DNA of 64,000 nt, taken from the NCBI RefSeq assembly GCF_021168475.1, contig NZ_JAJOZT010000001.1, positions 591,238 through 655,237 of the forward strand. Direction: 5' to 3'. Positions 12,764 to 19,135 of the stretch are shown in pieces (positions within the stretch are counted from its first letter, which is position 1; the number at the start of each line of letters is the position of its first letter). A model generated the notes under the pieces. The model had not been told where the DNA came from. It did no database searches and was given only the letters and a program-made list of their open reading frames with translations. Origin of the DNA: Pseudoclavibacter sp. 13-3 (GTDB lineage: Bacteria; Actinomycetota; Actinomycetes; Actinomycetales; Microbacteriaceae). The position numbers and the translations under genes were made by a program.

Positions 12764-13675
12764 TCAGATGTTGTGCCGTTCGTAGGCCGGTTCGCGCCAG
12801 CCGAGCACGGCCTCGACGAGACGCATCGCGTCGACCGACTCGCGAGCGGCGTGCATGCGCACGATGCGAGCGCCCTGCATCGCGCAGACCGTCGCCGCAG
12901 CGAGTGACCCGGCCAGCCGGTCGGGCTTGTCTCGATCGAGCGTCTCGCCGATGAAGTCTTTGTTCGACACCGCCGCGAGCGCAGGCAGGCCGATTTCGGC
13001 GATCTCGGCGAAGCGACGGGTGAGCTCGAGCGTCTGTCGGGTGCTCTTGTTGAGGTCGTGCCCTGGGTCGATCACGATGCGCTCGGGCGGCACGCCGAGT
13101 TCGACCGCGCGGTCGACGCGCCTGCGCAGAAAGGTGGCCACCTCCCCGACGACGTCGTCATAGTGCGGATGCGGAAACGGCGTGCGAGGCTCGGCCAGAC
13201 TGTGCGTGATCACCAGTGTCGCATCGCTGTCGGCGACCACTCGCGCGACGTCGGGATCGTGCAGCCCGGTGGTGTCGTTGATCACCGCCGCGCCGGCCGT
13301 GATGCATGCTTCGGCCACTTCGTGGCGAAAGGTGTCGACCGAGATCACCACGTCGCTGCGCTGCGCCACCGCTCGCACCACGGGCAGTACGCGTTCGATC
13401 TCGTCGTCAGCCGACAGCTCGGGCCCTGGAGCGAACTTGACCCCGCCGATGTCGACCCAGTCGGCACCGGCCCGCACCGCATCCATCGCCGCCTCGACGG
13501 CCGCATCGAGCGCGAAGGTGCGCCCCTCGTCGAAGAACGAGTCGGGTGTGCGGTTGACGATCGCCATCACCGCGATCTGGCGAGAGAAATCGAAGCTGCG
13601 GCGACCGACAGTGCGACGTGGGTGCTGCAGCGGTGGCAGAAAGAGGGAGCCCGAAGTCGTATCGCTGATGCGCAT
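12764..13675 (-). CDS. Dihydropteroate synthase-like protein (FolP2 type)
   Basis: 303 aa with the pterin-binding TIM-barrel fold. MAIVNRTPDSFF (about residue 35) replaces the usual NVTPDSF motif, and the loop reads DIGGVKFAPGPE where authentic DHPS has GGESTRPG. ISVDTF and an INDTTG element are retained. These substitutions match the mycobacterial FolP2 group, for which dihydropteroate synthase activity is doubtful, so folate synthesis should not be assumed. The ATG at 13675 is chosen; the longer frame to 13846 would run antisense through the Trp-rich leader and terminator. Confidence 0.85.
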   Translation of the reverse strand: MRISDTTSGSLFLPPLQHPRRTVGRRSFDFSRQIAVMAIVNRTPDSFFDEGRTFALDAAVEAAMDAVRAGADWVDIGGVKFAPGPELSADDEIERVLPVVRAVAQRSDVVISVDTFRHEVAEACITAGAAVINDTTGLHDPDVARVVADSDATLVITHSLAEPRTPFPHPHYDDVVGEVATFLRRRVDRAVELGVPPERIVIDPGHDLNKSTRQTLELTRRFAEIAEIGLPALAAVSNKDFIGETLDRDKPDRLAGSLAAATVCAMQGARIVRMHAARESVDAMRLVEAVLGWREPAYERHNI

Positions 13676-13762
13676 GCGCCCATTGTCTCGCAGACGTCTG
13701 CTCGGCGACAGCACCCTGAGATCTGCGGCGAGTTCGCCCAGGCGCAGCGAGACGACCAGGTG

Positions 13763-13768
13763 TATAGT
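13763..13768 (+). promoter_or_regulatory. -10 box for Trp-rich leader
   Basis: TATAGT lies seven bases before the ATG of the Trp-rich leader peptide at 13776, placing transcription start at the initiation codon. No good -35 hexamer is visible. Confidence 0.55.
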
Positions 13769-13775
13769 CGTGGCC

Positions 13776-13826
13776 ATGCAGTTCTCGCGCAGCGCTTGGT
13801 GGTGGCCGTCCTTCCGACGGCACTGA
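13776..13826 (+). CDS. Trp-rich leader peptide, candidate attenuator
   Basis: Sixteen codons, MQFSRSAWWWPSFRRH, with three consecutive Trp codons (13797-13805). This composition is the hallmark of Trp attenuator leaders in actinobacteria. A stem (13802-13810 with 13816-13823, one bulge) begins at the third Trp codon. A second hairpin with a T-containing tail lies at 13849-13878. A leaderless start is suggested by TATAGT directly upstream. It precedes an MHS-family transporter rather than trp biosynthetic genes. Confidence 0.68.
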   Translation: MQFSRSAWWWPSFRRH

Positions 13827-13848
13827 CCCGCGCCTCGCGCACACATTC

Positions 13849-13878
13849 AGGCCGCCGATCGAGCGGCCTTTCGCCTTT
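13849..13878 (+). terminator. Attenuator terminator hairpin
   Basis: AGGCCGC pairs with GCGGCCT across a 7-base loop, followed by TTCGCCTTT. Outer arms CGCACA (13838-13843) and TGTGCG (13878-13883) can extend it. CGACGGC at 13815-13821 can pair with GCCGCCG at 13851-13857 with one mismatch, offering a competing antiterminator. Confidence 0.65.
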
Positions 13879-13952
13879 GTGCGATTCTCTCTCGTCGGCG
13901 GTGCCGCTCCGAATCCGATCAGTCGATCGGCCTCACACACAGAGAGATCCCC

Positions 13953-15374
13953 GTGAATCAGCGAACAACCCACGAGCCGTCACCCAAGCTGCACCTGCCC
14001 GATGACCCGCCGCAGGCGGTGAATCCGAGCCCGCTCGCCGACCCGCCCGCGCAGAAGGGGCTGCTCGGCCGCCTCGCCCTCGCATCGGGCGTCGGCACCG
14101 CCCTCGAGTTCTACGACTTCGCCCTCTACGCCACCGCGACGTCACTCGTGTTCAACAAGGTCTTCTTCGTCGTCGACGACCCCTGGTTCGGCACCTTTCT
14201 GGGGTTCGTGACCTTCGCCGTGGGCTTTCTGATGGCCCCGATCGGCGCCGTCGTCTTCGGCCATCTGGGCGATCGCATCGGCCGCCGCAACACCCTGATC
14301 GCCACGTTCACGCTGATGGGCGGCGCGACCCTGCTCATGGGGCTGCTGCCGAGCCACGCGACGATCGGCGTGGCTGCTCCCCTGTTGCTGCTCTTTCTTC
14401 GCCTCGTGCACGGCGTCGCCCGCGGCGGCGAGGTCGGCGGCGCGGCGCTCATCGCCATCGAGCAGGCCCCGGCAAAGCACCGCGGCCTCTATGGCAGCTT
14501 CGTCACCCTCGGCTCGCCCGTCGGAGCAGGTCTCGCGAACCTCTCGTTTCTGCTGATTCTGCTGCTGCCCAATGAGGCGGTCATCGGCTGGGCATGGAGA
14601 ATTCCGTTTCTTCTCGGCGGCCTCGTGCTGGTCGTCGGTCTGGTCACGCGGCTGCACGTCGACGAGACCCCGGTGTTCAAACAGTTGCAGAGCGAGCGCA
14701 AGGTCGCGAAGCGGCCAGTCGCCGATGTGCTTGGACACAGCTGGGGCCGTGTGCTGGGGGCCGCGGGCGTCATGTTCGGCTTCAACGCCTTTCAATACGT
14801 GCTCTTCACCTTTCTGCTGTCGTTCGGCTCTGAACCGGTCGCGCAGCACGGCCTCGGCCTTGCGCGCAATGCGCTGGTCACCGGCACGCTGCTCGGCTGC
14901 CTCGGGCACGCCATCGCCATCGCCGTCGCCAGCGTGCTCTCTGACCGCGTCGGCCGCAAACCGGTGATTCTCACCGGTGCGATCGGCCTCGCGCTCTATG
15001 CGTTTCCGATGTTCTCGCTGTTCACCGCCGGCTCGGCGAGCGAGGCCGCGGCCGCCATCGTGATCGGGCTCACCCTGGCCGGCATCATGTTCGGCCCGAT
15101 GCTCACCTGGTTCGCGCAGCTGTTCGCTCCGGCTCAGCGCTACACGGGCATCGGTCTCGGGTTTCAGATCGGTGCCGCCCTCGGCGGCGGGTTCTCACCG
15201 CTGATCGCCAACCGTCTGCTCGCCGCCACCGGCACCACCGTGTCGATCTCGATCTTTCTGGTCGCGGCCATGGTGCTGAGCCTCGTGTGCATCGTCGTGC
15301 TGCCCGAACAGCACGCGAGCTCGCGCGCCGACGACGCGAGCCAGCGCGACGGGGGCTACAATCACGACCTGTGA
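13953..15374 (+). CDS. MFS transporter, metabolite:H+ symporter (MHS) type
   Basis: 473 aa with twelve predicted membrane helices. The MHS hallmarks are ALEFYDFALYATATSLVF near residue 50, GHLGDRIGRRN between helices 2 and 3, and LHVDETPVF after helix 6. This family includes shikimate, proline/betaine and dicarboxylate importers. GTG start at 13953 with AGAGAGA upstream. The Trp-rich leader and terminator directly before it suggest control by tryptophan supply, hence an aromatic substrate such as shikimate or tryptophan; that is inference. Its TGA overlaps the GTG of the next gene. Confidence 0.9.
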   Translation: MNQRTTHEPSPKLHLPDDPPQAVNPSPLADPPAQKGLLGRLALASGVGTALEFYDFALYATATSLVFNKVFFVVDDPWFGTFLGFVTFAVGFLMAPIGAVVFGHLGDRIGRRNTLIATFTLMGGATLLMGLLPSHATIGVAAPLLLLFLRLVHGVARGGEVGGAALIAIEQAPAKHRGLYGSFVTLGSPVGAGLANLSFLLILLLPNEAVIGWAWRIPFLLGGLVLVVGLVTRLHVDETPVFKQLQSERKVAKRPVADVLGHSWGRVLGAAGVMFGFNAFQYVLFTFLLSFGSEPVAQHGLGLARNALVTGTLLGCLGHAIAIAVASVLSDRVGRKPVILTGAIGLALYAFPMFSLFTAGSASEAAAAIVIGLTLAGIMFGPMLTWFAQLFAPAQRYTGIGLGFQIGAALGGGFSPLIANRLLAATGTTVSISIFLVAAMVLSLVCIVVLPEQHASSRADDASQRDGGYNHDL

Positions 15375-16627
15375 CAAGCCCAGCTGCTGAGACCTCGACC
15401 CTGCTGCCCGGTCTCGATCGAGACCAGGGGCGGCTGGCGCAGCGCATCACCGCGTTCTGCGACGAGCACCTCGCGACCGGCTCTGCTCGGCACCGGTCGA
15501 GCGATGACCGACCGGCCGTCTTCCTCGTGCAGGGCGCCGCAGGCACGGGCAAGAGCGCGCTGCTCTCGCAGCTGTTCGTCGCGCTGAGCGCACGATCGCG
15601 TCTGCGGGCGTCGGCCGACCCGATGGCCGGCGCCCGCATCCGCATGCTCGTCAACCATGCCGAGATGTGGCGGCGCTACCGCGATCTCGCCGGGCAGCAG
15701 CCCGCGCTGCGCAAGATGCAGGTCATGCGGCCGACGCCCTACATCAACGCAGCCGCCCGCGACGCGTCGCAGCGTGCTGACATCGCGCTCGTCGACGAAG
15801 GCCACCTGCTGCTCACCCGTGCCGACCCCTACACCCGGTTTCGCGGCGAGAATCAGCTGGCCGACATCATTCGCGCCTCTCGCATCACAGTGGTCGTCTA
15901 CGACGATGCACAGGTGCTGCGCATGCGCAGCCACTGGAGTCTGGCGCTGCTCGAGCGGGTGATCGGGCACGCGACACTCGAACGCGGCGAGTTGCACCGT
16001 CAGCACCGCATGGGCGCGTCTCTCGAGGTTCGCGAGTGGATCGACCGCTTCGTCTCGGGGGGTGCGCCCGTGTGCCCGCCCCCGGCAGGCGACGCCTCGT
16101 TCTCGATGCAGGTCTTCGACGACGCCGGCGCTCTCTACCGTTGGGTGCGCTCGCACCAGGCACAGGGCTCGGCACGCATGCTGTCGACCTATGACTACCC
16201 CTATGCCCTCGACGGGCGCGACCACTTCATCGACGAGCCGGGCCTGCACGTGCGCTGGGATCGCTACCGTCCAGAGGCCACCCTGCCGTGGCCTGAGCGC
16301 CCCGACAGCGCAGACGAGGTGGGCTCGGTCTATACCGTGCAGGGGCTCGACGTCGATTGGGCGGGCGTACTGCTCGGCCCGTCTGTCGTGCTGGGTGATG
16401 ACGACTGCCTGCGGATGCTGCCCGACCGCTACGAGGATCGCGCCGCGCTGAGCGGTGGCGCGGCAGCGCGCGCATCGGGCTCGACTGCGGCGGATGCCCG
16501 CGCGGCGCACGAGCGCATCTTGCGTGACGCGCTGCTCACGCTGCTGACGCGACCCCGCCGCGGGCTCGGCATCTCTGCACACGACCCCGCGCTCAGGCGG
16601 GCACTCGACGGGCGGCCAAACTCGTGA
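15371..16627 (+). CDS. DUF2075-domain ATPase/helicase-like protein
   Basis: 418 aa P-loop protein of the DUF2075 (schlafen group 3-like DNA/RNA helicase) family. Walker A QGAAGTGKS lies near residue 55 and Walker B DIALVDEGH near 140. Later motifs include VVVYDDAQVL, LHRQHRM and VYTVQGLDVDWAGV, resembling superfamily 1 helicase motifs III to VI. GTG at 15371 overlaps the stop of the MHS transporter (GTGA), so translation is probably coupled although the functions seem unrelated. Its 3' end overlaps the convergent EamA gene by 35 bases. Confidence 0.85.
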   Translation: MTSPAAETSTLLPGLDRDQGRLAQRITAFCDEHLATGSARHRSSDDRPAVFLVQGAAGTGKSALLSQLFVALSARSRLRASADPMAGARIRMLVNHAEMWRRYRDLAGQQPALRKMQVMRPTPYINAAARDASQRADIALVDEGHLLLTRADPYTRFRGENQLADIIRASRITVVVYDDAQVLRMRSHWSLALLERVIGHATLERGELHRQHRMGASLEVREWIDRFVSGGAPVCPPPAGDASFSMQVFDDAGALYRWVRSHQAQGSARMLSTYDYPYALDGRDHFIDEPGLHVRWDRYRPEATLPWPERPDSADEVGSVYTVQGLDVDWAGVLLGPSVVLGDDDCLRMLPDRYEDRAALSGGAAARASGSTAADARAAHERILRDALLTLLTRPRRGLGISAHDPALRRALDGRPNS

Positions 16628-17545: not shown

Positions 17546-19135
17546 TCAGTCGACCTTGGTCGTGCCTGCCGCAGCGGTCTTCACATCGGCGTTGTCAGCC
17601 GCAGCCGCCGGCGCCTGTGTGATGACCTGCAGCGGCATGGTGCTGGTGTCGATGTAGGGGTTCTCGGTCTGATCGCGCACGAGTCGGCGGGCCTCGGCCT
17701 CAGACTCGACCGTGGGCATCGAGCCCAGCAGCGGCCGTTTCGCCGTCTCACGCATGCACAGCATCGCGACGCCGCCGAGCAGGCCGAAGAACATGATGTA
17801 GAACGCCGGCATGTAGTGGTTGCCGGTCAGTGAGATGAGCCCCTGCGAGAACACCGGCGTGGTGCCGCCGAACAGCGCTACTGCGACGTTGTACGAGATC
17901 GCCATCGCCCCGAAGCGCGATGCCGTCGGGAACAGCGCCGGCAGGGCCGCCGCCGAGATCGCCACGTAGAAGGCCACTGGAATCGCGACCAGCACCAGTG
18001 CACCCTGAATCGCCCAGAAGGTGCCGACGTGCATGAGCATGAATGCGGGCAGCATCAGCACCAGTGTCGCGACGACGGCAATGCCGTAGACCGGGCGACG
18101 GCCGATGCGGTCAGACAGGCGCCCGATCAGCGGCAGGCAAAGTGCCATCACGATCAGCACAGGCACCGTTGCGGCGGCGGCCATGGTCGGCGTCGTGCCC
18201 ACCTCGGTCTCGAGATATGCGGGCATGTAGCTGGTCAGGGCATACCCTGCGGTGTTCGTGGCCGCGACGATGGCGATGCCGATGAGCACCTCACGCCAGT
18301 AGTGCTTGAGGATGCCGCCGATGCCGAGTCGCTGGAACATGGGATCTGCCGTTTCGGGCTTCGGTGCGTCGTCTTCGTCTTCTTCGAAGTGCGGGGTCTC
18401 GGGAATTCTCGTTCGCAGATAGATGGCGACGGCGCCGAGCGGAATGGCGATCAGGTATGGAATGCGCCAGGCACCGTCGGCCATGGCCGTCTCACCCCAC
18501 ACTGACTCGGCGATGATCGTGGTCACAGCCACCGTCGCAGCACCTGCGGCGAACCCCAGGTACGAGCCGACGTCGAGCCATGAGGCGAAGTAGCCGCGCT
18601 TCTTGTCTGGCGAGAACTCTGAGACATATGTCGTCGCACCGGCGTACTCGCCGCCGGTCGAGAACCCCTGCACCATCTTGAGCAGATAGAGCGGAACGGT
18701 CGCCCACAACCCGATCTGAGCTGCCGTCGGCAGCAGTCCGATGAGTGCTGTGGCGAGGGCCATCATGCCCATGGTCAGAAACAGCACCTTCTGACGACCG
18801 ATGCGGTCACCGAGCGGCCCGAGCACCATGCCGCCCAGCGGGCGCACCAGAAAGCTCACGGCAAACCCGAGCAGCATGATGATCAGACCGGTCTGCTGCG
18901 GCAGCCCCTCGGTGAACACATGAGTCATCACGACGGCCAGGTAGCCGTAGATGCCGAAGTCGAACCACTCCATGAAGTTGCCCACCACGGTGCCGCCGAT
19001 GGCCTGTTTCATCGGGCGTCGCTTCACGATCACCACGTCTTCTTTGCGCAGACGGCGCCGACGTGCTCGCGCCTGGCCGGGGCCTGCGCCGACGCCCTCT
19101 GGCGCCATCTGTGAACTGTTGTCATTCGTCTGCAT
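17546..19135 (-). CDS. MFS transporter, MHS type (proline/betaine-like)
   Basis: 529 aa with twelve membrane helices. The family marks are NFMEWFDFGIYGYLAVVM near residue 55, GPLGDRIGRQKVL and FSTGGEYAGATTYVSEFSP. These are closest in feel to ProP-like proline/glycine-betaine or citrate symporters. A polar N-terminal 40 residues and a polar C-terminal tail of about 60 residues are present. Upstream at 19215 a perfect 11-base inverted repeat could bind a regulator. Substrate not assignable. Confidence 0.9.
   Translation of the reverse strand: MQTNDNSSQMAPEGVGAGPGQARARRRRLRKEDVVIVKRRPMKQAIGGTVVGNFMEWFDFGIYGYLAVVMTHVFTEGLPQQTGLIIMLLGFAVSFLVRPLGGMVLGPLGDRIGRQKVLFLTMGMMALATALIGLLPTAAQIGLWATVPLYLLKMVQGFSTGGEYAGATTYVSEFSPDKKRGYFASWLDVGSYLGFAAGAATVAVTTIIAESVWGETAMADGAWRIPYLIAIPLGAVAIYLRTRIPETPHFEEDEDDAPKPETADPMFQRLGIGGILKHYWREVLIGIAIVAATNTAGYALTSYMPAYLETEVGTTPTMAAAATVPVLIVMALCLPLIGRLSDRIGRRPVYGIAVVATLVLMLPAFMLMHVGTFWAIQGALVLVAIPVAFYVAISAAALPALFPTASRFGAMAISYNVAVALFGGTTPVFSQGLISLTGNHYMPAFYIMFFGLLGGVAMLCMRETAKRPLLGSMPTVESEAEARRLVRDQTENPYIDTSTMPLQVITQAPAAAADNADVKTAAAGTTKVD

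Follow-up and report, generated by a model that had tools for sequence, protein, structure and literature searches.

Leaderless Trp leader peptides precede trpE and trpS in Streptomyces, and Trp attenuators are found on the trp operons of Corynebacterium (PMC1262725, PMC8079986). In the window, which is the whole 64 kb stretch of Pseudoclavibacter sp. 13-3 DNA that was analyzed, a related arrangement was found in front of a transporter gene. As in the S. lividans trpL1-trpE system, whose leader peptide MFAHSTRNWWWTAHPAAH is leaderless, it begins with a short ORF that carries a run of Trp codons and is predicted to be leaderless, and as in the trp attenuators of S. lividans and Corynebacterium, GGCC-rich antiterminator and terminator helices compete with one another (PMC8079986, PMC1262725). 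Unlike these actinobacterial attenuators, the leader in the window stands not on trp genes or trpS but on an MHS-type transporter gene, its U tract is weaker, and trpE of the same genome is without such a leader.

A leader has been proposed for the importer genes metNIQ, and S. lividans metL-metNIQ resembles our locus in being a leaderless actinobacterial leader peptide followed by importer genes, but metL concerns methionine, its codon run is weak and termination there is unclear (PMC8079986). In Streptococcus suis, trpX likewise places a Trp uptake system under a Trp-responsive leader RNA; this RNA is a tRNA-binding T-box of a Firmicute, which has no leader peptide and serves another type of transporter (PMC9382623). 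The Trp_leader family of Rfam (RF00513) shares the working principle of our element, but the ORF in the window is of the leaderless type, its target gene differs and its score is below gathering. RF00513 was the best subthreshold Rfam match of the window leader (13791-13876, 16.2 bits vs. a gathering score of 41) and gave no match in the homologs tested; the Rfam scan at gathering scores returned tRNAs only. The mechanism is already known, and the target, an MHS-type transporter, is new. Our literature search found no report of an MHS transporter under a Trp attenuator, nor of any Trp attenuator in Pseudoclavibacter; related sites may be listed in a 2015 survey of actinobacterial Trp attenuators (Korolev et al., as it is cited in PMC4833913). 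Among Actinobacteria, it would be unusual for a leaderless Trp attenuator to act on an importer gene and not on trp genes or trpS.

The leader ORF occupies positions 13776-13826 of the forward strand and encodes MQFSRSAWWWPSFRRH in 16 codons plus a stop (ATG CAG TTC TCG CGC AGC GCT TGG TGG TGG CCG TCC TTC CGA CGG CAC TGA). Its three tandem Trp codons (13797-13805), the putative control codons, are invariant in the leader alignments and end six codons ahead of the stop codon at 13824-13826. A -10-like box, TATAGT (13763-13768), is located 7 nt upstream of the ATG, and the 5' end of the mRNA probably coincides with this ATG or adjoins it. Because transcription driven by the box leaves no room for a Shine-Dalgarno site, a leaderless transcript is probable. 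This ORF is the sole short WWW ORF within the 64 kb. Simulation of random sequence with the dinucleotide make-up of the window gave an expectation of 0.05 short WWW ORFs (35 codons or fewer) per 64 kb, both strands counted, and a TAnnnT box at leaderless spacing accompanied none of the simulated ORFs.

Three helices were located on the same strand downstream of the control codons. Stem 1:2 (13805-13821), a candidate protector or pause hairpin seen in minimum free energy (MFE) folds and in pair conservation, joins GCCGUC at 13805-13810 with GACGGC at 13816-13821 and begins at the final base of the third Trp codon. The antiterminator 2:3 (13815-13857), which is the MFE structure when the Trp-codon side is masked, pairs mainly 13815-13821 with 13851-13857 and is extended by pairing of 13823-13826 with 13847-13850. 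The terminator-like hairpin 3:4 (13849-13869), identified by pair conservation, joins AGGCCGC at 13849-13855 with GCGGCCU at 13863-13869. The three helices are mutually exclusive; the Trp codons fall at region 1, and region 2 is where the stop codon lies. This layout was examined in four Pseudoclavibacter leaders and in a trpE leader from a second genus (see below). The first-pass annotation, made from the letters of the DNA, had picked out the leaderless ORF with its three consecutive Trp codons, the stem at the third of these and a possible antiterminator, and each of these features was recovered here and is kept in relatives.

We propose that transcription would start at or adjoining the leader ATG. 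When charged tRNA-Trp is plentiful, the ribosome would reach the stop codon and mask region 2, so that region 3 would pair with region 4 and transcription would end ahead of the transporter gene. When charged tRNA-Trp is scarce, the ribosome would halt on the Trp codons and mask region 1; helix 2:3 would then pair, the terminator would be blocked and the transporter would be made.

To assess the conservation of the leader, we analyzed orthologs of the transporter. Such orthologs (E <= 1e-100) were present in 5 of 400 family genomes, were 60-86% identical across the five species, which belong to two genera, and all five were preceded by a Trp leader. Among these are all four species of Pseudoclavibacter (the window genome, sp. 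CFCC 11306, P. soli DSM 23366 and P. caeni JCM 16921; leader present in 4/4). The leader peptide of CFCC 11306 is identical to that of the window, the P. caeni peptide is MNTVPTTRIAVPLRAWWWPSSRRS, and the P. soli peptide has 32 residues and ends in AWWWPSARRS. Start boxes (TATAGT, TAAAGT and TATAGT in CFCC 11306, P. soli and P. caeni, respectively) are each separated from the ATG by a 7-base spacer. The N-termini of the leaders differ among the species (16, 24 and 32 residues), with the Trp codons and the arms kept, and in the leader alignment TGGTGGTGGCCGTC, CGACGG, CAGGCCGCCG and TCGAGCGG are invariant amid diverged flanks. The loss of Trp codons or paired arms in close relatives, which would have spoken against the element, was looked for, and conservation was found instead. 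A dihydropteroate synthase gene is the divergent neighbor of the leader in the window (12767-13678, reverse strand) and also adjoins it in CFCC 11306, and other genes take this place in P. soli and P. caeni. Since the neighbors vary between lineages, the leader goes with the transporter and not with the neighborhood.

The fifth ortholog comes from G091, a genome of the same family but another genus (83% complete, 1% contamination, probably a MAG), where it lies on contig C36 and is 60% identical to the window transporter (E 3e-166). Its leader ORF, MTSNRIGWWPSN followed by a stop codon, is of the leaderless type, with two Trp codons and a TACTGT box seven bases upstream of the ATG. The stem GGCCGUC/GACGGCC is intact in this leader even though the stop codon falls inside the stem and the peptide ends in PSN. 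As the stem nucleotides persist past the stop of the reading frame, selection appears to act on the RNA, not on the peptide. On contig C3 of G091, a near-copy of the window leader, MNSSRLFAAWWWPSSRRH, with TATACT six bases upstream of its ATG, directly precedes the operon trpE-trpG-trpD-trpC-trpB-trpA (L188:1062-7171; genes named from their translations, trpD also by a TIGR01245 match). The motif PS.RR at the peptide C-terminus is common to this trpE leader and the four Pseudoclavibacter leaders. Contig C3 also carries genes that by eye look to be of arsenic, phage and transposase type, and a second trpD is located on contig C63; the trpEGDCBA operon of G091 may have been acquired, or contig C3 may be foreign. 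Because the Trp codons and arms are kept in the four Pseudoclavibacter species, an independent Trp leader stands on the G091 ortholog and the same leader type precedes trpEGDCBA there, we consider it likely that the MHS-type transporter is under the control of a classical ribosome-mediated Trp attenuator.

We also examined whether the leader RNAs fold as such a mechanism would predict. When the Trp-codon side was masked, which simulates a stalled ribosome, and the RNA was folded up to region 3, helix 2:3 formed in all four Pseudoclavibacter leaders and in the G091 trpE leader. When the simulated ribosome instead occupied the stop codon, hairpin 3:4 with its GGCC motif formed, and without a ribosome, 1:2 and 3:4 coexisted. 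Once the complete hairpin was included, the stalled state had no thermodynamic preference for the antiterminator in most species, the terminator usually being at least as stable. The model therefore needs a co-transcriptional order of folding, on which known attenuators likewise rely. Against the high GC content of this DNA, the folding energy of the window leader did not reach significance (z -1.68; 11 of 200 shuffles folded as well), and since energy alone is unremarkable, it is conservation and layout that carry the argument. In the alignment of five sequences, pairs were kept at 100% in stem 1:2 and at 97% in hairpin 3:4 (98.5% of pair cells for the two jointly), and antiterminator 2:3 kept 85.7% of its pair cells, with one A-C mismatch in Pseudoclavibacter. 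Retention of pairs exceeded every slid control for all three helices. No compensatory base changes were found in the arms among these five sequences, in which the pairs were mostly invariant or changed on one side to G-U; the arms are too conserved and the sequences too few for covariation to speak for or against the helices. Thus, Trp attenuation of an MHS transporter, as the first-pass annotation proposed it, is well supported by the conservation of the leader in relatives and by its folding under simulated stalling. Of the checks that this annotation had listed, alignment of relatives showed conservation and no covariation, and folding yielded the alternative helices at the simulated ribosome positions and an ordinary energy.

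The same annotation had described a terminator hairpin with a T-containing tail; the hairpin is conserved, but the tail is weak in the window (TTTCGCCTTTG) and is not conserved. A scan for consensus terminators, which required at least 5 T in 8, found no site in the window leader, and the U tract, weak both here and in CFCC 11306, is missing from P. soli and P. caeni. As a result, termination itself can only be predicted; the transcript may end without a U tract or with help from Rho, or control may be exerted at translation. These weak or absent U tracts favor a reading in which the same Trp leader acts by an output other than intrinsic termination, so that ribosome stalling would set Rho access or, through sequestration of the Shine-Dalgarno site, the start of translation. 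The G091 transporter leader points in the same direction, since its terminal hairpin, CUUUCAGUG/CACUGAAAG, sequesters the AAAGGA Shine-Dalgarno site ahead of the GTG start codon (L236, contig C36), which suggests, speculatively, a change from transcriptional to translational output, and actinobacterial leaders without obvious terminators are known (PMC1262725). However, the GGCC hairpin is, together with the Trp codons, the most conserved part of the element, its 5' arm competes with region 2, and it precedes the transporter start codon by ~85 nt in the window, where it leaves the ribosome site uncovered. We regard an output of this kind as possible but rather unlikely. A small second hairpin, CCGATC-AGTC-GATCGG (13915-13930, forward strand), lies between the attenuator and the transporter gene; in CFCC 11306 its arms are kept and its loop is changed.

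The putative regulated gene (13953-15374, forward strand, GTG start) encodes an MFS transporter of 473 residues (TIGR00883, MFS_1/Sugar_tr). It matched TIGR00883, the general model for metabolite:H+ symporters (MHS), over the full model length with E=3e-104; because the score of 349 bits is below the curated cut-off of 443 but the protein falls among MHS proteins in the tree, we refer to it as MHS-type. In the maximum-likelihood tree, the transporters that carry a leader group in a single clade with full support; its sister is the Crossiella protein, and it is separate from ShiA, YhjE, YdfJ, ProP and KgtP. A search of PDB sequences with the transporter gave no match. The first-pass annotation had suggested a link to the shikimate importer ShiA, and import of shikimate under the same attenuator would agree with ShiA being an MHS protein, with ShiA being the highest-scoring specific model after the general one (251 bits, below the cut-off of 538) and with the ~37% identity of the transporter to E. 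coli ShiA. Identity of ~37% is typical between MHS proteins of different function. The transporter is related to E. coli ShiA no more closely than to the remaining MHS branches, L227, a further MHS protein encoded in this genome, is nearer to ShiA, and aroE is present, so that shikimate can be made by the cell. On these comparisons, the transporter is not a ShiA ortholog, the suggested link is not supported, and shikimate import is improbable.

The leader could also be an arrest peptide or drug sensor, at which an antibiotic or, as with TnaC, free Trp would stall the ribosome and induce a possible exporter. To our knowledge, the characterized MHS proteins are importers. Ribosome-mediated leader-peptide attenuation is known for a transporter operon, bmrCD (PMC4191407), and the conserved PS.RR terminus might suit an arrest peptide, but the G091 transporter leader lacks this terminus while keeping its stem nucleotides, and the same type of leader precedes trpEGDCBA in G091, which together make an arrest peptide very improbable. 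That a chance ORF met chance hairpins in GC-rich intergenic DNA is hardly credible, for although the folding energy alone is not unusual, such ORFs are scarcely expected in a stretch of this length and the leader is kept ahead of the same gene in five species of two genera.

Next, we considered how the attenuator relates to Trp biosynthesis. In Pseudoclavibacter, trpE, trpC, trpB and trpA lie in a his-trp cluster (assigned by position and translation; trpE by PF04715), and trpD is present along with aroE. With these genes in place, there is no sign of an auxotrophy that would explain a need for the transporter. No convincing Trp leader was found at the Pseudoclavibacter trp loci examined, including trpE and trpD, or at trpE of other Microbacteriaceae and at 30 Micrococcales trpE loci. 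A covariance model of the leader (R1), searched against 200 family and 296 phylum genomes, gave one strong new match, which was the G091 trpE leader; at its other matches, a mechanical ORF scan showed no convincing Trp leader, and they look like chance hits. R1 missed the G091 transporter leader, which was found by the ortholog search, and differently built leaders elsewhere may therefore escape detection. The pattern TGGTGGTGGCCGTCNNNNCGNCGG, searched in 347 genomes of the order, matched its own locus and three other sites, which were rejected for want of a leader-like short ORF. At the locus of the Crossiella ortholog (51% identity, another family), a Trp leader was not found; its neighbors there resemble purF and purM and give no hint of the substrate.

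The attenuator points to a role in Trp supply for a transporter clade whose sequence does not reveal the substrate, and its retention in two genera predicts import of Trp or of a compound that is converted to Trp. From this regulation, Trp itself is the simplest choice, and we tentatively predict its import, at a little under an even chance; an aromatic precursor (anthranilate, indole or shikimate) comes next, as a possible but more doubtful substrate. The leader thus offers a route to a first substrate for the leader-bearing MHS clade. It is also possible, though on balance doubtful, that these loci form a lineage-specific trp regulon, in which an attenuator akin to the trpEGDCBA leader controls a new type of MHS importer for Trp or an aromatic precursor, the Pseudoclavibacter trp genes examined are leader-free, and the output shifted between genera from a terminator to Shine-Dalgarno sequestration. 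The comparison suggests that attenuators can shift between biosynthesis and uptake genes with the sensor unchanged.

Two genes near the transporter were also noted. A second MHS-type transporter gene (17549-19135, reverse strand) is ProP-like by the tree and by NCBIfam (418 bits, cut-off 544). Directly downstream of the first transporter gene, the product of a gene on the forward strand (15287-16627) carries a Schlafen group 3 DNA/RNA helicase domain (PF09848, E 4.7e-75), and in CFCC 11306 a similar-looking gene lies near the transporter gene, with other genes intervening.
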